From a virus, in IMG/VR virus record IMGVR_UViG_3300047317_000322, positions 1 to 29,241 of that record: a stretch of DNA of 29,241 nt, one strand, 5' to 3'. A program made the position numbers and the translations under genes. Below the pieces are notes generated by a model that searched no databases, had not been told where the DNA came from, and was given only the letters and a program-made list of their open reading frames with translations. This document shows positions 2,995 to 28,936 of the stretch, piece by piece. Each line of letters begins with the position of its first letter. The stretch's first letter is position 1.

Positions 2995-3023
2995 TTGACT
3001 TTCCCCCTATCGTATGGTGTAAT
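2995..3023 (+). promoter_or_regulatory. Sigma70-type promoter 1 of a tandem set
   Basis: TTGACT (2995-3000), a 17-nt spacer and TGTAAT (3018-3023). An AAACAAAGTGT sequence, close to the inverted form of the ACACTTTGTAAC box, overlaps its -35. Confidence 0.7.
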
Positions 3024-3071: not shown

Positions 3072-3101
3072 TTGACGCGGTGTTACAAAGTGTGCGATAC
3101 T
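3072..3101 (+). promoter_or_regulatory. Sigma70-type promoter 2 of a tandem set
   Basis: TTGACG (3072-3077), an 18-nt spacer and GATACT (3096-3101). The spacer contains GTTACAAAGTGT (3082-3093), the exact reverse complement of the ACACTTTGTAAC box that overlaps the -35 of other promoters here. Confidence 0.65.
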
Positions 3102-3203: not shown

Positions 3204-3232
3204 TTGACACTTTGTAACGTAAGGTCTACAAT
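3204..3232 (+). promoter_or_regulatory. Sigma70-type promoter 3 of a tandem set
   Basis: TTGACA (3204-3209), a 17-nt spacer and TACAAT (3227-3232), a near-consensus promoter. ACACTTTGTAAC (3207-3218) overlaps the -35, exactly as at 768 and 5223. Confidence 0.8.
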
Positions 3233-3335: not shown

Positions 3336-3429
3336 GTGATAATTTATCTTATGTTATATCCAAGCAGTCCGAATTAACTGTTCGGTTAGCTAGGATGCCT
3401 AACGATTCATAGCGAACGTTAGGACGCAT

Positions 3430-3441
3430 TGCTCTTTAACA
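3430..3441 (+). promoter_or_regulatory. boxA antitermination element 1
   Basis: TGCTCTTTAACA matches the boxA of bacterial rRNA operon leaders, the RNA site bound by NusB-NusE in antitermination complexes. It lies in the untranslated leader about 200 nt below promoter 3. Confidence 0.65.
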
Positions 3442-3498
3442 ATACGGATGCATGAACCATCAGTAGATGGAACCCGCCAACACTAGCCCAGTGGGCTT

Positions 3499-3598
3499 GT
3501 GCGGTTGTGTCGTGCTGGAGAAGTGAGATAGGTGCTAGTCACCGAAAGCCGGATACGGTTGCTTGCGGATACCAGTCTCCAATCGCACTTAAGCTGGA
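3499..3598 (+). ncRNA. Candidate structured leader RNA
   Basis: Between boxA 1 and boxA 2 the transcript can form a long stem: GTGCGGTTG (3499-3507) pairs with CAATCGCAC (3590-3598) with one G-U pair, enclosing a GGTG-CACC hairpin (3531-3543). A smaller AGCCC-GGGCT hairpin lies just upstream. No known RNA family is recognised. It may be part of an antitermination leader, or simply a folded leader with no separate function. Confidence 0.3.
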
Positions 3599-3685
3599 GT
3601 GTGTTGTGTGTAGATCGGGGGAAAGTCAATGGATGGGGAAGGGCAGGGCTATGCTTTGCCCCTAATTACAGTGCATCGTGTGTTG

Positions 3686-3697
3686 GTTCTTTAACAA
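3686..3697 (+). promoter_or_regulatory. boxA-like element 2
   Basis: GTTCTTTAACAA shares TCTTTAACAA with boxA 1. The shared TCTTTAAC begins 255 nt downstream of that in element 1. Confidence 0.55.
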
Positions 3698-3807
3698 TCT
3701 ATTCGTCAGTTCTTTGTGCGCCAGTTGAAAGGACACATTGTAGCAAAATGTTTCGTGGCTTGACATTCCCTTTGAGGCGAGACTAGCAGACCCTCATATA
3801 GTGTAAC

Positions 3808-3816
3808 GCTATCATC
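3808..3816 (+). repeat. GCTATCATC leader motif
   Basis: GCTATCATCATTTTTC follows GTGTAAC in the non-coding block. If TATCAT is a -10 element, transcription from here would read through boxA 3 and the tRNA-like gene. Confidence 0.55.
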
Positions 3817-3942
3817 ATTTTTCTACGATTGTGTCAGGCAAGCAAAGGTAATACGCTGCTGTAAAGCATCCGTTCTGACGTGCTAGGTAAAGACTAGATT
3901 GAGCGGCATTCACTGGACTAAGCATTGAGTGACGCTTGATAT

Positions 3943-3952
3943 GTTCTTTAAC
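3943..3952 (+). promoter_or_regulatory. boxA-like element 3
   Basis: GTTCTTTAAC ends on the base before the tRNA-like gene. Its TCTTTAAC starts 257 nt after that of element 2, nearly the same interval as between elements 1 and 2. Confidence 0.5.
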
Positions 3953-4031
3953 GCGGGTTCTAAATGGATAGTGCGTGTGGCTGATTACCACATAATCAAC
4001 GCAGTGTGTTCAAGTCACACAACCCGCTCCA
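3953..4031 (+). tRNA. tRNA-like gene with atypical D/anticodon region
   Basis: A 79-nt sequence with a perfect 7-bp acceptor stem (GCGGGTT, 3953-3959, with AACCCGC, 4021-4027), a perfect T arm (GTGTG, loop TTCAAGT, CACAC, 4004-4020) and encoded CCA (4029-4031). The middle is ambiguous. One fold has anticodon stem TGTGG/CCACA with loop CTGATTA (anticodon GAT, Ile), but it needs a short D arm and an 11-nt variable region. The other has TGATT/AATCA with a normal 5-nt variable region, but loop ACCACAT lacks U33. It could be a decayed tRNA or a tRNA mimic. It directly follows a boxA-like element and precedes a small-gene operon. Confidence 0.6.
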
Positions 4032-4047
4032 ATTTCTAGGAGGTTGT

Positions 4048-4161
4048 ATGGATGACTTCGGTAATCGTATCTACCACAAAATCCGTTCTTATCAATACAC
4101 AGCCGCAATGGCTTTCCTTCATGAAGCAGACTGGGAGGTAACTCACTATGTCGTATTCTGA
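4048..4161 (+). CDS. Hypothetical small protein, 37 aa
   Basis: ATG at 4048 has a strong TAGGAGG ribosome binding site four nt upstream, right after the tRNA-like gene. The peptide (MDDFGNRIYHKIRSYQYTAA...) is mostly helical in character, with aromatic residues. It overlaps the next gene by 14 nt in another frame. No family recognised. Confidence 0.6.
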   Translation: MDDFGNRIYHKIRSYQYTAAMAFLHEADWEVTHYVVF

Positions 4162-4303
4162 ACGTTCTAATCTTCGCATTGCTCAGGCCAATCATGCTCG
4201 CAATATTCGTGACAATTTCAAGTGCTGTGAACGGGCTTATGTCTACTTGCGCAAACGTGGTTGGTCTGAAGAAGGCGCGGCGTTTGTTGTGTTTGGTGAG
4301 TGA
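4148..4303 (+). CDS. Hypothetical basic small protein, 51 aa
   Basis: ATG at 4148 lies 8 nt after GGGAGG within the end of the preceding gene. The protein is rich in Arg and aromatic residues, with a central CC pair and a motif YVYLRKRGWSEEGAA. It is probably helical. No family is recognised. It ends in TGA overlapping the next, small membrane gene. Confidence 0.6.
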   Translation: MSYSERSNLRIAQANHARNIRDNFKCCERAYVYLRKRGWSEEGAAFVVFGE

Positions 4304-4394
4304 GTATTGGTTGTTGCTTGTGTTTCAGGTTGGTCTTATCACGTTAGGCGTGCTTTGGTGCGTAACAATCGCAAAGCTTCTTTCCCACGCTTAA
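4296..4394 (+). CDS. Small membrane protein, 32 aa
   Basis: GTG at 4296 overlaps the end of the preceding gene. The peptide is one hydrophobic span (YWLLLVFQVGLITLGVLWCV) followed by a short basic end (AKLLSHA). No clear ribosome binding site is visible, so expression would depend on coupling. Supported mainly by position and membrane-like composition. Confidence 0.45.
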   Translation: MSEYWLLLVFQVGLITLGVLWCVTIAKLLSHA

Positions 4395-4430
4395 CATCAT
4401 ACCATTGAATTTTATATTAGGGGTAACATC

Positions 4431-4958
4431 ATGTTTGATCGTGCTGCATTTGAATCGGGCTTCAACGGTCGTATCAAAATCTTGGCTAAGGCAGAGAAGT
4501 TGACGAAAGAAGGATTGCGTGACTTGTCCCGTGAACTGTTGCTTATCACGCAGGAAACTGAGGATATCGGCTATGTCAATCGCACTCTTGAAGTGTTGAG
4601 TCCCGCCAACAAGCGTATTTGCGTGCTGTTCTTCCGTGAGTTCTCCGGCTTCCTGTTCTCGGACGAGAGCAACACGTTCGTTAAGAAGGACAAGAAGCGC
4701 TATGACGATATCAAAGCTAAGGCTATTGCCTTTCTGGATGATCCGCACAACAACGTGTGGACGTGGCAAGAACGCAACGTAGATATCGAAGTCAAGCCTT
4801 TCGATCTGACAAAAGTTACGGCATTCGCAACGAACGTGCTGAAGAAGGCAGAGAAGGAAGGCGTGTCACAAGTGGATGTGCTGAATGCTTTCTTTGCGGC
4901 AGGCTTCAAGCCCGAAGCATTGATGGCAGTCATGGACAAGATGACGGCAGGGCAATAA
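4431..4958 (+). CDS. Conserved-looking early protein, 175 aa
   Basis: ATG at 4431 with AGGGG upstream. The protein opens MFDRAAFESGFNGRIKILAKAEKLTK and appears largely helical, with a charged middle (KKDKKRYDDIKAKAIAFLDD) and a C-terminal part ending EALMAVMDKMTAGQ. No catalytic motif, membrane span or metal site is visible. It is the largest gene of the early region. In phiEco32-type phages early proteins include inhibitors of host RNA polymerase, but nothing here shows that function. Confidence 0.8.
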   Translation: MFDRAAFESGFNGRIKILAKAEKLTKEGLRDLSRELLLITQETEDIGYVNRTLEVLSPANKRICVLFFREFSGFLFSDESNTFVKKDKKRYDDIKAKAIAFLDDPHNNVWTWQERNVDIEVKPFDLTKVTAFATNVLKKAEKEGVSQVDVLNAFFAAGFKPEALMAVMDKMTAGQ

Positions 4959-4960
4959 GC

Positions 4961-4969
4961 GCTATCATC
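4961..4969 (+). repeat. GCTATCATC leader motif
   Basis: GCTATCATCGTTTGTAGGGCTT starts two nt after the stop of the 4431 gene. ATGACG lies 16 nt upstream of TATCAT. The wider match with the 1907 copy (GTTTGT.AGGGCTT) includes the downstream AGGG. Confidence 0.6.
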
Positions 4970-5064
4970 GTTTGTAGGGCTTGGCATGGGTTGCCTATGC
5001 CTGCCTATCTGTTTTCTTTTCGAAGCCCACCAAGGGGCTATAAACCAGTCTAAAGGGTATTTAC

Positions 5065-5208
5065 ATGCATCAGGCAATGGCAGCAGCATTGATTCAGGCA
5101 GGCTACGCAAAGAAAGACGACAAGCGTGGCAAGTTTAAAGAAGGCTTCAGTACGAAACTGAGCTACCGCACGTATCAGGCATTGAAAGCACAAGGGGTGC
5201 TTGAATAA
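5065..5208 (+). CDS. Hypothetical small basic protein, 47 aa
   Basis: ATG at 5065 with AAAGGG upstream. The protein opens with a helix (MHQAMAAALIQAGYAKK), followed by a Lys-rich stretch and a second helix (YRTYQALKAQGVLE). Net charge is positive. The two-helix arrangement could suit a small DNA- or protein-binding factor, but no family is recognised. Confidence 0.6.
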   Translation: MHQAMAAALIQAGYAKKDDKRGKFKEGFSTKLSYRTYQALKAQGVLE

Positions 5209-5222
5209 GCACATCTATTCGC

Positions 5223-5251
5223 TTGACACTTTGTAACCGTTAGTCTATTCT
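5223..5251 (+). promoter_or_regulatory. Sigma70-type early promoter
   Basis: TTGACA (5223-5228), a 17-nt spacer and TATTCT (5246-5251), placed 34 nt upstream of the gene at 5285. ACACTTTGTAAC (5226-5237) overlaps the -35 as in the promoters at 768 and 3204. Confidence 0.8.
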
Positions 5252-5284
5252 GTAGCTGTCTTACACAACTACGGGAGAGCAACG

Positions 5285-5455
5285 ATGGTTTTCTTCATAT
5301 TGTTTGGGAAGCAATACCGGACAGATTTCAGCGCAACAAAGGTTGAAATGTTGGAGGATGGTGGCAAGTGGACCGCAACACGTAACCCAAGAGTTGTAAG
5401 CAGGGCTAAGGCGGCTGTCCAAGAGTGGCTTGAGAAGGCTAAAGGAGGGCAGTGA
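5285..5455 (+). CDS. Small early protein, N-terminal-half paralogue
   Basis: A 56-residue protein; ATG at 5285 with GGGAGAG upstream, driven by the promoter at 5223. It resembles the N-terminal part of the 118-residue protein at 1934, sharing the order TK(I/V)E, then a Gly-containing turn, (K/R)VVS, and a helix with AK/AAVQEW. Together with the next gene it forms a split version of that protein. Function unknown. Confidence 0.7.
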   Translation: MVFFILFGKQYRTDFSATKVEMLEDGGKWTATRNPRVVSRAKAAVQEWLEKAKGGQ

Positions 5456-17322: not shown

Positions 17323-19202
17323 AAGTAAGAGTATTCGATACTGAGGCAAACAATCTCTATCCTGCGGTAACTGTTTGTCATTGCGGCGTATTCACTAGCC
17401 TAGATGGAAAGGAAGTAGACAAGTTTCCTCCTGAGCGGCAGCAGGACATGCTTCGGTTTATGGATACTTGTGATGTACTGATTGGGCATAACGTCATAGG
17501 CTATGACTTCCCGATGCTCAAGAAGGTGTGTGGATATGTGTTCAAGGGTAAGGTGGTAGACACCCTGCTCATGTCTCGTGCACTCAACCCTAAACGTTTT
17601 CTCCCTCCACATGCGAAAGATCGTAGAGCAGGCCCTCACAGCATTTATGCTTGGGGCGTTAGAGTTGGGGTTGATAAGCCCGAACACGAAGATTGGGAGA
17701 ATTATTCTCCTGAAATGCTTCACCGATGTACCGAAGATGTAGAAATCAATCGACTCACCTACCACGCCTTGATGAAGGAGGCGGCTGAGTCTGGTGGGAA
17801 GTGGAGGGATGCGTTCCTCCTGACGTTCAAGCTTTTCCAGAATCTCCAAGAGCAAGAGGAGTATGGCTGGTACGTGGACAAGCAGAAAATGCTTGACAAC
17901 ATCGTTGAACTTGAGCAGCTTATGCAAGAGATTGATGATGAAGTGATCCCGCAACTGCCTAACATCCTTGAGATTTTGGAGGTAAAGAAAGATGGACAAG
18001 TCAACTGGGTACGGAAGCCCTTCCTCAAGAGCGGCAAGCCTTCTGAATCGAGTAGCAAACATTTTGGACTGGACGGGTGTGCTTGCATTGGCGGTCCCTA
18101 TAGTCGTATTGGTTTTCGCCCTGTTGACCTAAACAGCCGTAACGAGGTTGTATCCTATCTTCTGAAGGAGGGTTGGGAACCTCTTGAGTGGAACTACAAT
18201 GATGACGGAGAAAGAACGTCGCCTAAGCTTTCTAAGGATGATCCATTCGAAGGCGTGGAGGGCGAGGTTGGAAAGCTCGTTTCCAAACGAGTGCAGTGTC
18301 GGCATCGAAAATCTCTCGTTGAAGGCTTACTTGAGCTTGTGCGAGACGATGGCCGTATATCAAGCAGTATTGCCGGGATGGCTGTTACCGGCAGAATGCA
18401 ACACCGAGGAATTGTAAATATCCCCGGAGAAAAATCTTTCTTCGGCCACGAGATTCGCCAGATATTCTCCTGCCCACCCGGCAAAGTGATTGTTGGGTGC
18501 GACTCAGATGCTTGTCAGATTCGTATGCTCGCGGGTCGGATGAACGACCCTGCATATACGGAAACCGTCATCAACGGTAAGAAAGAAGATGGCACTGACA
18601 TGCACACAGTAAACATGAATGCCACAGATGGACTCGTTACTAATCGTGACGATGCCAAGACGTTCTTCTATGGCTTTCTGTTTGGTGCGGGGGATGGGAA
18701 GGTTGGGAAGATCATTAAGGGGACTGCTGCACAAGGGAAGATGTTGAAAACGAAGTTCATTGATGGGCTTCCCGCCTTGAAGGCACTACTCGAAAAACTT
18801 ACGGCAGAGTGGAGGGCAACTGCCAAGAAACGGATGAATAAGAAGTTTGATCGAATCGAATACTACGATGGAACCATCATTGGTTTAGATGGCCGTCCCA
18901 TCAAAATCCCCTCAGAGCATCAGTTGCTTGTCTATATGCTTCAGTCGGACGAAGCAATAATGATGGCTGCTGCATACTGTAAAGTAAATTCAGACCTATC
19001 AAAGCGGTATATAAAAGGTAAGCAGTTTGGATTTCTTACATGGATGCACGATGAATACCAAATCGAATGCGATGAAGATATTGCAGATGACGTAGGTAAG
19101 ATCGCAGCAGCAGCAATCGAATGGGCAGGGAAGTATTACAAAATCCCATGCCCACATAAAGGGGACTATAAGATTGGTAGAAATTGGGCGGAAACTCACT
19201 GA
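17319..19202 (+). CDS. Family A DNA polymerase with 3'-5' exonuclease, T7 gp5-type
   Basis: A 627-residue replicative polymerase. The N-terminal proofreading domain has Asp7/Glu9 (FDTEANNLY), Exo II in IGHNVIGYDFPML (52-64) and Exo III in CTEDVEINRLTY. Polymerase motifs are A with Asp395 (GCDSDACQIR), B with Lys447 and Tyr451 (DDAKTFFYGFLFG), and C His577-Asp578-Glu579. All catalytic residues are present. It is somewhat shorter than T7 gp5 (704), so a thioredoxin-binding insertion may be absent. A GTG start overlaps the sigma stop (GTGA), linking sigma and polymerase synthesis. Confidence 0.95.
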   Translation: MKVRVFDTEANNLYPAVTVCHCGVFTSLDGKEVDKFPPERQQDMLRFMDTCDVLIGHNVIGYDFPMLKKVCGYVFKGKVVDTLLMSRALNPKRFLPPHAKDRRAGPHSIYAWGVRVGVDKPEHEDWENYSPEMLHRCTEDVEINRLTYHALMKEAAESGGKWRDAFLLTFKLFQNLQEQEEYGWYVDKQKMLDNIVELEQLMQEIDDEVIPQLPNILEILEVKKDGQVNWVRKPFLKSGKPSESSSKHFGLDGCACIGGPYSRIGFRPVDLNSRNEVVSYLLKEGWEPLEWNYNDDGERTSPKLSKDDPFEGVEGEVGKLVSKRVQCRHRKSLVEGLLELVRDDGRISSSIAGMAVTGRMQHRGIVNIPGEKSFFGHEIRQIFSCPPGKVIVGCDSDACQIRMLAGRMNDPAYTETVINGKKEDGTDMHTVNMNATDGLVTNRDDAKTFFYGFLFGAGDGKVGKIIKGTAAQGKMLKTKFIDGLPALKALLEKLTAEWRATAKKRMNKKFDRIEYYDGTIIGLDGRPIKIPSEHQLLVYMLQSDEAIMMAAAYCKVNSDLSKRYIKGKQFGFLTWMHDEYQIECDEDIADDVGKIAAAAIEWAGKYYKIPCPHKGDYKIGRNWAETH

Positions 19203-19656
19203 GCCTAACAAGGCAAAGGAAATCGTTATCGAGTTGGATGGAGAGTGCATGATTTGCACTTCTCACGTACCCAATCATGACGGGTACATTCGAATCTTCC
19301 AAGGCAGCGAATCTAAGAAGCGTTATGAAATGCTTCACAGAATGTCTTGGATGCAGCACAAGGGTCCAATCCCAAGCGGCATGGAAGTAGATCATAAGTG
19401 CCGTAACAGAAGGTGCTGTAATCCAGAGCATCTGCAACTCCTCTCCGAATCAGAGCACAAATCCAAGACTAACCGAGAACGGTATGCCGATAGAATTTCG
19501 GCAATAGTGGAGTGCATTCTGAACGGAGAAAAGTCGAAAGGTATCGCAGCTAAGTTTGGTGTAAGCCAACACACAGTTACCTACCATAAGCGAAGGGTGA
19601 CGGGTGTAACACGAACGTTCACATGGAGAAATCGTGACAAACAACGAACTGATTGA
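19174..19656 (+). CDS. HNH homing-type endonuclease with C-terminal HTH
   Basis: A 160-residue frame starting at TTG 19174 (AAAGGGG upstream; the start is uncertain and overlaps the polymerase end). The HNH core is at about residues 54-95: HRMSWMQHKGPIP, then EVDHKCRNRRCCNPEHLQLL. The C-terminal part includes a helix-turn-helix (SKGIAAKFGVSQHTVTYHKR) that would guide DNA recognition. Such genes insert next to conserved replication genes and spread by cleaving copies lacking the insert. Position directly after the polymerase is typical. Confidence 0.8.
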   Translation: MVEIGRKLTEPNKAKEIVIELDGECMICTSHVPNHDGYIRIFQGSESKKRYEMLHRMSWMQHKGPIPSGMEVDHKCRNRRCCNPEHLQLLSESEHKSKTNRERYADRISAIVECILNGEKSKGIAAKFGVSQHTVTYHKRRVTGVTRTFTWRNRDKQRTD

Positions 19657-20215: not shown

Positions 20216-20932
20216 ATGGGTTTGAACGCATCGAAGGTCAAAGGCGGTAACGCAAATAAAGTAGAACAGCCGGTGATGGAAGCAGGTACTTATCCTGCAC
20301 GATTGGTACAAGTGATTGACTTTGGCCTTCAGCCTCAACGAGCTTTCAAGGGTGATCCTAAGCCACCTGCACATGAAATCTCCACCACGTATGAATTCGT
20401 AGATTGCTTTATGGTGGACGAGAAGGGTAACGATATTGAAGATAAGCCACGTTGGGTGAGTGAGAGTTTCCCTCTCCGTAACATCATGGCTGAGCTTGCA
20501 ACTAGTACGAAGCGAGCTAAGGCACTGGACCCGGAAGGTATTCATAACGGTGACTGGCCTGCAATGCTTGGCAGTCCTGTGAATGTAACTGTAGTGATTA
20601 ACGAGAGCAAAGGTAAGTTTTATACGAACATTGCTTCCACTGCCACCATGCGAGCTAAGGACGCTCAGAAGTGTCCTGAGCTGAAGAACGATACCAAGTT
20701 CTTCGATTTGAGCGAGCCTGATTTGGAAGTGTTTAACAGCCTTCCTGAATGGATTCGAGAGAAGATTAAGGGGAATCTGAATTATGCTGGTTCGAAACTT
20801 GAAGCGTTGCTTGGTGGGGAAGCTCCGCCTGAGAAGAAAAAGGCAGAAGCACAGCCCGAACAACCGAAGAAGCAGCGAGAAGTACCTGATGAGGTGGGTG
20901 AGGAAGGCGTAGAGGAAGATGCGCCGTGGTAG
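20216..20932 (+). CDS. Putative single-stranded-DNA-binding protein
   Basis: A 238-residue protein. Residues about 18-150 look strand-rich (GTYPARLVQVIDFG, then PVNVTVVINESKGKFYTNIAS), consistent with an OB-like fold. From about 200 it becomes a Pro/Glu/Lys linker and ends in a strongly acidic tail (DEVGEEGVEEDAPW) finishing with an aromatic residue. Acidic tails ending in an aromatic residue are characteristic of phage and bacterial SSBs such as T7 gp2.5, where the tail contacts polymerase and helicase. Position between polymerase and exonuclease fits. The fold itself is not proven by motif. Confidence 0.7.
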   Translation: MGLNASKVKGGNANKVEQPVMEAGTYPARLVQVIDFGLQPQRAFKGDPKPPAHEISTTYEFVDCFMVDEKGNDIEDKPRWVSESFPLRNIMAELATSTKRAKALDPEGIHNGDWPAMLGSPVNVTVVINESKGKFYTNIASTATMRAKDAQKCPELKNDTKFFDLSEPDLEVFNSLPEWIREKIKGNLNYAGSKLEALLGGEAPPEKKKAEAQPEQPKKQREVPDEVGEEGVEEDAPW

Positions 20933-21318
20933 TTTATGTGAAGGGCTTTGAAGGTCTGTACGAAGTGTGGGAGAACGGGATTGTCGTGTCCGTTCTCCGT
21001 CAGACCTCTGACACTTTTAAGGGAAAGCCGCGGCTTCGTTGGCAAGGTGGAAAGATACTGGCGCAAGTTCGTAATAAGCGTGGGTATATGAAGGTCATGT
21101 TGTGGAAGGATAACAAGATGTACACCAAACTTGTACATCGAATTGTGGCCGAAGCCTTCCTTGATAACCCTGAAAACAAACTTGAGGTAAATCACATAGA
21201 CGGCAATCCTAGTAATAACCATGTGACCAATCTTGAATGGAACACTCGTGTAGAAAATGCGAGACATTCAATTGATGTGCTTAGACGTTGGCCGAGGTTG
21301 CGATGCGCCAGTGTCTGA
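20926..21318 (+). CDS. HNH endonuclease with NUMOD4 motif
   Basis: A 130-residue protein from GTG 20926 (GTG 20938 is an alternative). The N-terminal NUMOD4-like segment is GFEGLYEVWENGIVVSV; the HNH core is HRIVAEAFLDNPENK, then EVNHIDGNPSNNHVTNLEW. This is the usual homing endonuclease layout in phages. It is inserted between the SSB candidate and the exonuclease gene and overlaps both by a few bases, so it has become part of the operon. Confidence 0.85.
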   Translation: MVVYVKGFEGLYEVWENGIVVSVLRQTSDTFKGKPRLRWQGGKILAQVRNKRGYMKVMLWKDNKMYTKLVHRIVAEAFLDNPENKLEVNHIDGNPSNNHVTNLEWNTRVENARHSIDVLRRWPRLRCASV

Positions 21319-22106
21319 TTGATGCGGATGTGCTCTTGTATGAAATAGGCTTCGCTAGTGAGACGGCATGGAAACATGCCTCTCCCAACTCAGACGATCC
21401 TCCTCCTTGGAGCAAAGTTGAGGAGTTATTGCACCAGCGTATTGAGCACATTGAACATGCATGTGAAGCAACCGTTCCTTCAATCTTCTTTCTAACAGGC
21501 AATGGCAATTTTCGCTATGAGTTGGCTAAACGAACTCCTTACAAGGAACGCGTTGGACACAAACCGTTTCACTACAAGAACATCAAAGCCTACATCAAGG
21601 GTTGTTTCGAATACCGAGAAACGGACGGCCTTGAAGCAGACGATCTTATGTCGATTGAGCAAACTCTTCGAGGGGACGAAACCATTATCTGCACTAGAGA
21701 CAAAGACTTGCGCAGTGTGGATGGATGGCATTATGGATGGGAACTCGGAGAGCAGCCTTCGTTCGGACCTTTCAGAGTGGATGGTTATGGAGCTATTTTT
21801 CTTAGTGACGACCGCAAGAAAATCACAGGCTACGGGCTCAAGTTCTTCCTCTCACAGTGCCTAACTGGGGACAGGGTAGACAGCATTCCCGGATTGCCCA
21901 AATGCGGGCCTGTAGCAGCCTTTGAGAGGTTGGTTGATACCAGCACATATGCCGAGGGCTTGGAAGCCGTAGCAGAGGCTTACAGAGGCCCCTACCCCTG
22001 TACATGGGATGTTGAGTTGACAGAGCAGGGTAGGTTGCTCTGGATGACTCGGAAGCTCAACGAGGATGGTACGCCTGTCCTATGGGATGTGCATGCCACG
22101 TACTGA
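21303..22106 (+). CDS. 5'-3' exonuclease (FEN/Pol I 5'-nuclease family)
   Basis: A 267-residue protein; ATG 21303 with GAGG upstream is preferred over TTG 21288. Acidic metal ligands are visible: Asp7/Asp9 (LIDADVLLY), Glu111 with Asp113/Asp114 (DGLEADDLMS) and Asp133/Asp135 (CTRDKDL). The helix-hairpin-helix at 188-205 (LTGDRVDSIPGLPKCGP) contacts DNA. These enzymes remove RNA primers and flaps and help recombination; T7 gp6 plays this role. The motifs are complete, so it should be active. Confidence 0.9.
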   Translation: MRQCLIDADVLLYEIGFASETAWKHASPNSDDPPPWSKVEELLHQRIEHIEHACEATVPSIFFLTGNGNFRYELAKRTPYKERVGHKPFHYKNIKAYIKGCFEYRETDGLEADDLMSIEQTLRGDETIICTRDKDLRSVDGWHYGWELGEQPSFGPFRVDGYGAIFLSDDRKKITGYGLKFFLSQCLTGDRVDSIPGLPKCGPVAAFERLVDTSTYAEGLEAVAEAYRGPYPCTWDVELTEQGRLLWMTRKLNEDGTPVLWDVHATY

Positions 22107-22482
22107 GTTCAATGGAGGTAAATGGACAGAAGCAAAGTTTCATTCGTTCGTCAAATCGGCTCTACGGGCTGCTTCTCGCAAATGGCCCCCGAAGTACGAA
22201 ACGATAAACGATGCATATGTCGGAACCCAAATCAATGCATCAAGTGGTCGCCTAGCAAAGCACTTCCGGTGTGCAGCTTGTGCAGGCTTATTCACCAGCA
22301 CGAACATTCAGGTTGACCACATCAACGCTATCATCGATCCGAAAGTTGGCTTCACCAATTGGGACGATGTTGTTAGCGCGATGTTCTGTGAAAAAGAAAA
22401 TCTTCAAGTTCTTTGTAAAGCATGCCACAAGATTAAGACGGCAGAAGAACGAAAACTAAAAAAGGAATCAAAGAATGGATAA
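22093..22482 (+). CDS. HNH nuclease with two Cys pairs
   Basis: A 129-residue protein; the start at 22093 (MPRTEFNGGKWTEAKF) is inferred from where a typical N-terminus would lie, and in-frame ATGs at 22066 and 22087 are possible. It contains a zinc-binding CAAC and CKAC pair around an HNH core (NIQVDHINAIID). The basic C-terminal end is KKESKNG. Unlike the other HNH genes it lacks NUMOD motifs. It may be a resident phage nuclease for DNA processing rather than a homing gene. Confidence 0.75.
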   Translation: MPRTEFNGGKWTEAKFHSFVKSALRAASRKWPPKYETINDAYVGTQINASSGRLAKHFRCAACAGLFTSTNIQVDHINAIIDPKVGFTNWDDVVSAMFCEKENLQVLCKACHKIKTAEERKLKKESKNG

Positions 22483-28441: not shown

Positions 28442-28936
28442 ATGCTAATTGAAATCTGGAAGCCGACTTACGTAGAAGGCTATGAAGTGTCTAACTTTGG
28501 ACAAGTACGGAACATCAAAACTAACCATATCCTCTCACCCACTGTTAAGCCGAAAGGCTACAAAGAGCTTAGGCTTAAAGGGAAATGGTGCAGTGTCCAC
28601 AGACTTGTTGCGAAGGCTTTCATAGATAACCCAAACAACTATCCGCAAGTTAATCACAAAGATCACAACGAAGGTAATAACCTAGTTCTCAATTTGGAGT
28701 GGTGTACTGGTGCGTACAATATAGAATATTCACAAGCCAAAACTTTTTATTTCAAAAGTCCAGAAGGTGTTGTGAGTAAGGTCCACAACCTGAATTCGTT
28801 CTGCCGTAGGTTCGGTTTGCCTACAGGAAACATGCACAGATTGTGGACAGGAAAGCACAAAAAGATTAAAGGGTGGACTCGCGCCTCAGCCGAGGATTTT
28901 CTTGACGTAATTCCTAGTCTCTGCGGGAATATATAA
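28442..28936 (+). CDS. Homing-type HNH endonuclease on the opposite strand
   Basis: A 164-residue protein; ATG 28442 with TAGGAGA upstream. NUMOD4-like start: WKPTYVEGYEVSNFGQVRN. HNH core: HRLVAKAFIDNPNNYPQ, then VNHKDHNEGNNLVLNLEW. The C-terminal part carries a DNA-binding-type module (LNSFCRRFGLPTGNMHRLW). It lies against the direction of its late-gene neighbours, and its 3' end overlaps the transglycosylase gene by 51 nt. Both facts point to a mobile gene with its own expression. Confidence 0.9.
   Translation: MLIEIWKPTYVEGYEVSNFGQVRNIKTNHILSPTVKPKGYKELRLKGKWCSVHRLVAKAFIDNPNNYPQVNHKDHNEGNNLVLNLEWCTGAYNIEYSQAKTFYFKSPEGVVSKVHNLNSFCRRFGLPTGNMHRLWTGKHKKIKGWTRASAEDFLDVIPSLCGNI

Follow-up and report, generated by a model that had tools for sequence, protein, structure and literature searches.

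The boxA elements of rRNA (rrn) operons and the nut sites of lambdoid phages are already well known. According to PMC10250234, boxA is both required and sufficient for the rrn complex, the 23S of rrn operons is preceded by another set of signals, and pairing of leader with trailer closes the 16S in a helix. Lambdoid nut sites comprise boxA and boxB and act with an N protein. Outside rrn operons, in the leaders of CRISPR arrays and in suhB, boxA guards long untranslated stretches of RNA against Rho. GOLLD and ROOL lie close to tRNA genes. They are, according to PMC12286853, large, folded, noncoding RNAs associated with phages. Here we report a phage leader that shares traits with each of these systems. 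We found no description of such boxA leaders in these phages in the literature searched, which took in PMC9960094 but few subscription papers, so that an earlier one is possible; the term boxA has 0 occurrences in PMC8948821 and PMC4331800.

The window, i.e., the whole stretch of DNA analyzed, comprises the 29,241 bases of a virus record and represents a fragment of a Zobellviridae-like podovirus. Its proteins include a primase/helicase, a family A DNA polymerase, an RNA polymerase sigma-like factor, amidoligases, and a glutamine amidotransferase, a predicted gene set that puts it alongside podoviruses of the Zobellviridae, e.g., PA11, CW02, and CVT22. In the protein comparison, core replication and amidoligase genes were held in common with this family: the primase shares 55 to 63% identity with the best matches listed and the COOH-NH2 ligase up to 63%, and the matches of both are mostly phages classed as Zobellviridae in their own records. 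No DNA-level relative of the window was found in the phage collection; relatives, such as G005, were drawn from IMG/VR. Four open reading frames (ORFs) of the window (19174-19656, 20926-21318, 22066-22482, and 28442-28936) resemble, by eye, HNH homing endonucleases.

The leader spans approximately 1.2 kb, from an ORF ending at 2838 to the first small ORF of the early genes, and contains the following features.

2995 to 3023, + strand: sigma70-like promoter P1 (TTGACT-17-TGTAAT), identified by eye; kept in G004
3072 to 3101, + strand: sigma70-like promoter P2 (TTGACG-18-GATACT; 9/12); kept in G004
3204 to 3232, + strand: sigma70-like promoter P3 (TTGACA-17-TACAAT; 11/12); kept in G004
3398 to 3423, + strand: hairpin just 5' of boxA1 (CCTAACG...CGTTAGG), identified by eye and placed like the rrn boxB
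3430 to 3441, + strand: boxA1, TGCTCTTTAACA, whose core equals that of the boxA in the E. coli rrnB leader
3441 to 3684, + strand: structured RNA domain with a helix joining its ends (covariation, conserved core, fold)
3686 to 3698, + strand: boxA2, GTTCTTTAACAAT, in which TTCTTTAACAA is invariant in all six aligned sequences
3699 to 3940, + strand: second interval, folded and ending in a 43-nt hairpin (3898-3940)
3942 to 3952, + strand: boxA3-like element, TGTTCTTTAAC, the weakest of the three boxes
3953 to 4031, + strand: tRNA-like gene (ARAGORN: Ile GAT) with encoded CCA
4048 to 4161, + strand: first small early ORF (37 amino acids [aa]), closely preceded by a Shine-Dalgarno-like AGGAGG

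The original prediction had described three boxA-like elements in a noncoding leader downstream of three tandem promoters. The three TCTTTAAC sites were confirmed on the + strand at 3433-3440, 3688-3695, and 3945-3952, and the first is indeed a full rrn-type boxA, namely, the 12-mer listed above. The whole window contains 6 copies of TCTTTAAC on both strands, compared with a mean of 0.89 in shuffled sequences, and none of 100 shuffles reached 6. TCTTTAACAAT in boxA1 is invariant in 6/6 aligned sequences; boxA2 may also be written as GGTTCTTTAACA, and the third box reads TGTTCTTTAACG. The sequences of E. coli rrnB used for comparison were GCTCTTTAACAATTT (leader) and GCTCTTTAAAAATCT (spacer), and the core of boxA1 and boxA2 equals the rrnB core (leader form, GCTCTTTAACA; spacer form, GCTCTTTAAAA). 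This identity holds against the boxA of E. coli rrnB, Halomonas, and Vibrio, which may not be the boxA of the host of this virus. In predicted folds, the boxes are mostly unpaired and lie between helices.

That the leader is noncoding was borne out in practice, because the only + strand ORF of at least 60 aa across the block (3532-3786) loses its frame in two relatives; a protein-coding leader was rejected on the same grounds. The promoters fared less uniformly: P3 is strong and 27 nt of its upstream part are identical in G003, P2 is weaker, and the third, P1, was recognizable by eye. Hairpins of varied sequence were seen by eye at the place matching that 5' of boxA1 in G003, G008, G012, and G016. 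The third box touches the tRNA-like gene, as had been claimed, with the box ending at 3952 and the tRNA-Ile(GAT) called by ARAGORN starting at 3953. This gene scores 20 bits in the Rfam tRNA model, compared with a gathering score of 29. A pseudo-tRNA of phage GP100 with a stop anticodon (L085 2034-2106) occupies a comparable place ahead of the first early genes and shares its acceptor stem, GCGGGTT/AACCCGC-TCCA, with the tRNA-like gene of the window. From 3604 to 5300, no site resembling an intrinsic terminator was detected on the + strand.

Two further repeats were noted in the window. GCTATCATC has 13 copies, all on the + strand, versus 0.3 expected; they are found at 1131, 1907, 2336, 2922, 3808, 4961, and 7 further places. 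Several copies are intergenic and some others probably code for Ala-Ile-Ile; one falls in the interval from boxA2 to boxA3, and similar copies are present in G008 and G012. This word is possibly a promoter element for the phage sigma factor. The 16-mer CTTGACACTTTGTAAC occurs exactly three times (767, 3203, and 5222), and each copy resembles a strong promoter core.

Comparison with the described systems revealed both likenesses and differences. (i) As in E. coli rrn operons (boxB-boxA-boxC), the boxA core is identical, each helix-closed RNA domain has a boxA ahead of it, so that another boxA follows the first, and the transcript carries a tRNA; the hairpin seen by eye 5' of boxA1 is a candidate boxB. 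Unlike rrn operons, this is a phage leader without rRNA, in which domains of 200 to 250 nt or small genes replace 16S and 23S, and boxC is not evident, with no clear UGUGU seen by eye after boxA1 (the rrn position being ~18 nt after boxA). (ii) Like lambdoid nut sites, the boxA elements lie in a phage early transcript, but in the window the hairpin precedes boxA. No N-like protein was recognized among the window proteins scanned, which covered the small early ORFs in part. A lambda nut site operating with an N protein does not fit the 5' position of the hairpin or the absence of an N-like family among the proteins scanned. (iii) The boxA of CRISPR arrays and suhB is single, precedes host genes or arrays, and has neither a phage leader nor closing helices, unlike the elements of the window. 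(iv) The leader RNA recalls GOLLD and ROOL in being large, folded, and noncoding but differs from them in matching no Rfam family, in its size of ~245 nt, and in being bounded by boxA.

The interval between boxA1 and boxA2 holds a conserved structured RNA, which the original prediction had overlooked. An alignment of six sequences of this interval (alignment A2) folds into a long closed structure. Both sides had changed in 19 of 75 pairs, compared with 8.3 (standard deviation, 2.2) in shuffles (0/500), and 93.9% of cells were paired versus 86.6% in shuffles, with none of 500 reaching the observed value; sliding the partners lowered pairing to 34 to 44%. The folding energies of the two intervals of the window are modestly low (z values of -1.44 and -1.19), and because the energy by itself (-1.44) is unexceptional, the case for the RNA domain is built on covariation. 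Parts of the domain are common to three more relatives, firmly in G014 and weakly in G012 and G016; nhmmer searches with the window RNA likewise gave a firm match to G014 and weak partial matches to the other two, and no sequence relationship to CW02, T2S1, KZY1, PA11, or Vp670 beyond the boxA words. L081, which matched a pattern of the RNA core, was rejected as a chance match, since it looks like coding DNA and lacks boxA. In Rfam, there were 0 matches of the leader RNA at the gathering score (GOLLD, ROOL, and others) and otherwise only chance-level ones, so that a known RNA family was rejected. On this comparative evidence, the domain is, in the relatives of the window, a conserved RNA with compensatory changes, and it appears to be unnamed.

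Near relatives differ in what they retain. The leader of G005 (L009) is 93% identical and keeps all three boxes, including the third, as well as the tRNA-like gene. G001 (L027) is 82% identical, with an imperfect boxA1 (TGATCTTTAACA), an intact boxA2, TTCTTTATG at the third place, and a different CCA-ending sequence replacing the tRNA. In G003, boxA1 and boxA2 are kept, the third place reads TATTTAAC, and no tRNA was found. In G008, which has 62% identity in the polymerase, the boxes lie 246 nt apart, and the sequence that separates them is very different. Rfam did not score the sequences ending in CCA, in G001 and G008, as tRNA. The terminal hairpin of the second interval is also readable in G001 and G003. 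No TTCTTTAAC occurs in the record of G007, nor any boxA-like site in the 17.9 kb of it that were read. The pattern in G005, G001, G003, and G008 indicates that boxA1 and boxA2 form a conserved pair and that boxA3 is weak; the third box thus does not hold as an equal element, given that it decays in G001 and G003, which keep the others, and taken alone it could be a chance occurrence. At the ends of IMGVR 3300048861_000006 (L045 3601-3963 and L046 1-364), we observed versions of the boxA1-boxA2 unit that are only 92% identical, a difference that may reflect strain variation, an inexact repeat, or two copies. Contigs of other relatives likewise end in the boxA1-boxA2 region.

The distribution of boxA was assessed in 19 reference phages belonging to this group and neighboring ones, of which 17 were obtained via protein matches and two, VpV262 and phiEco32, were chosen by name; many records were taken in part, and ~500 bases of T4S1_462158 were left out. 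An 11-mer pattern that takes in both boxA forms of E. coli rrnB, leader and spacer, was found 21 times on the early-gene strand of the noncoding leaders (28.5 kb) and never on their other strand, compared with 8 times in 502 kb outside leaders, both strands included. At least one such 11-mer is present in 11 of the 19 phages and at least two in 6, namely, PA11, CW02, Vibrio 1.235, T2S1, KZY1, and phiEco32, the last of which has three strict 11-mers plus a near match in a single 1.9-kb gap. The strict 11-mer is absent from 8 phages (T4S1_462158, GP100, CVT22, 521E56, PS32B.1, Slicky01, T4S1_502596, and T5S1); CVT22 has the near match GCTCTTTAAAAG, and GP100 and 521E56 have degraded forms only. 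With the shorter word TCTTTAACA, triplets were found in CW02 (240/226 nt apart), T2S1 (213/204), and KZY1 (247/239). The near-equal spacing that had been pointed out, 255 and 257 nt, is correct for the window but is not conserved: boxes lie 246 to 247 nt apart in some near relatives, and in other phages the values are those of the triplets or 310 nt. A fixed period of 255 nt was therefore rejected.

To extend the survey, 2.9 million viral contigs were scanned for two TCTTTAACAA at 232 to 262 nt, so that the spacing of the matches is imposed by the pattern. This yielded 98 stretches, of which 80 were fetched. In 69 pairs at least one box lies within a possible ORF of at least 80 aa, mostly AT-rich coding DNA, and in 11 pairs neither box does. 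The latter, which include Zobellviridae-like phages, correspond to CW02, three already-known loci, and seven new ones, among which are a 77-kb phiEco32-like genome and the Vibrio phage Vp670, whose relative VEN, classed in the Autographiviridae, has two leader-type boxes and one of the spacer type. A stricter two-boxA pattern matched only 2 places in 257 Gb of bacterial genomes, an rRNA operon leader of Halomonas and a stretch of Vibrio diabolicus with a tRNA gene between the boxes; these matches provide independent support that the boxA word pair marks leaders of stable-RNA operons. The stricter pattern with the spacer form allowed retrieved 7 stretches from the viral contigs, including G005, G003, and two 77-kb genomes. 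A scan for three near-equally spaced boxes gave 25 stretches, which, except for L009, were judged by eye to be repetitive or AT-rich coding DNA and were rejected.

Neighboring boxA elements often flank a closed RNA domain, with an end helix running from just after one boxA to just before the next. For 26 intervals, the 35-nt arms after one boxA and before the next paired with a mean of -16.8 kcal/mol, versus -11.5 kcal/mol for mismatched arms; no permutation of the arms in 20,000 reached this, also with the 24 intervals left after removal of two near relatives. A control in which arms were slid along the leader gave -16.65 versus -11.1 for 24 intervals (Wilcoxon P = 1.6e-5), and 10 of the 24 fell in the top tenth of their slid controls. 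The first interval of the window is outside this tenth (fraction, 0.17); for the second, pairing was as strong or stronger in only 4% of controls. Closing helices are thus present as a group property, though some intervals fail. Many of the records come from the boxA-pair scan and were therefore selected for boxA, not for a helix. The strongest helices are those of PA11 (24 bp, -37), G015 (-27), interval 2 of CW02, interval 2 of the window, Vp670, and interval 1 of T2S1; the helix is absent or weak in interval 1 of CW02, Vibrio 1.235, interval 1 of G018, G019, and G020. In PA11 and TC6 the closing helix encloses a small ORF, and O4, in which the first boxA is damaged (TCATTAACA), has a PA11-type helix with pair-preserving changes, seen by eye, around a different ORF. 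With its different small ORFs, the frame of these PA11-like phages (L082 43588-43920, L093 8550-9150, and L199 580-900) resembles an exchangeable slot. HHBS10_2 and FBPa8 retain one boxA without the helix frame. The phage phiPLS27, of the Autographiviridae, has boxA and a helix arm in common with PA11, a likeness suggesting that the boxA-helix frame may move between podovirus families.

From these comparisons, we consider it probable that the block forms the 5' leader of the early transcript, has the layout of a miniature rRNA operon, and confers N-independent antitermination through NusB-S10. The idea that it mimics an rRNA operon leader is partly upheld, by the rrn boxA of host type, its concentration in the early leaders of many related podoviruses on the transcribed strand only, and the frame resembling that of an rRNA operon; as to what would be resisted, Rho acting on the untranslated leader is a likelier target than terminators in the early genes, which had been proposed, because of the lack of intrinsic terminator-like sites noted above. 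Copies of a short AT-rich word arising by chance would be compatible with the frequency of the word in AT-rich coding DNA seen in the viral scan, but this explanation is extremely improbable in view of the enrichment confined to one strand and to leaders in phages picked mostly by protein homology and of the conservation in relatives; it is already refuted for boxA1 and boxA2, and the shuffles together with the strand and location controls rule out a chance origin of the boxA sites.

Two further explanations assign the boxes another role. The leader RNA might be abundant and stable and, through its several boxA elements, act as a decoy that titrates host NusB-S10 and weakens rRNA synthesis, an effect in cis being secondary. 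Several boxA elements per leader, their confinement to one strand, structured RNA, and strong promoters would suit such a decoy, which we nevertheless regard as unlikely, given that a role in cis accords with the rRNA-like order and with the location ahead of the early genes, that leaders with a single boxA exist, and that PA11 and O4 enclose ORFs instead of stable RNA. Alternatively, the boxes might be AU-rich single-stranded linkers serving as RNase E sites that free the RNA domain and the tRNA-like RNA, their likeness to boxA being secondary; their mostly unpaired state in predicted folds and the contact of boxA3 with the tRNA-like 5' end are in line with this. An exact 11-mer is not required by RNase E, yet TCTTTAACAAT or TTCTTTAACAA stays unchanged in 6/6 aligned sequences and agrees with the rrn boxA in every base, and single boxA elements persist without a helix in HHBS10_2 and FBPa8, which makes processing as the primary role quite unlikely.

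Under the favored reading of an antitermination leader, host RNA polymerase would initiate at the sigma70 promoters, and NusB-S10 would bind boxA1 on the nascent RNA. NusA, NusG, and SuhB would then join to form an antitermination complex of the rrn type in which no phage N protein takes part, allowing the polymerase to cross ~800 untranslated nucleotides despite Rho and to reach the early genes. RNA held at boxA would aid formation of the closing helix, as proposed for pre-rRNA, later boxA elements would renew the complex, and RNase III and RNase P may excise the RNA domain and the tRNA-like RNA. The comparison suggests that related phages with similar leaders may borrow the same host protection against an early stop of transcription. 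More tentatively, and as a possibility rather than a probability, these leaders may constitute a widespread class of miniature rRNA operons, in which rrn-type boxA elements punctuate helix-closed modules holding new RNA or exchangeable genes, with N-independent antitermination and rRNA-like folding and excision.

If this is true, lytic podoviruses of several groups directly exploit the rRNA antitermination of their hosts without a phage antiterminator protein, which would explain how long untranslated early leaders are transcribed in the face of Rho and would turn NusB and SuhB into host factors for the phages concerned. It would also add a conserved phage RNA family and provide a short natural model for how a polymerase bound to boxA helps distant RNA ends to pair.
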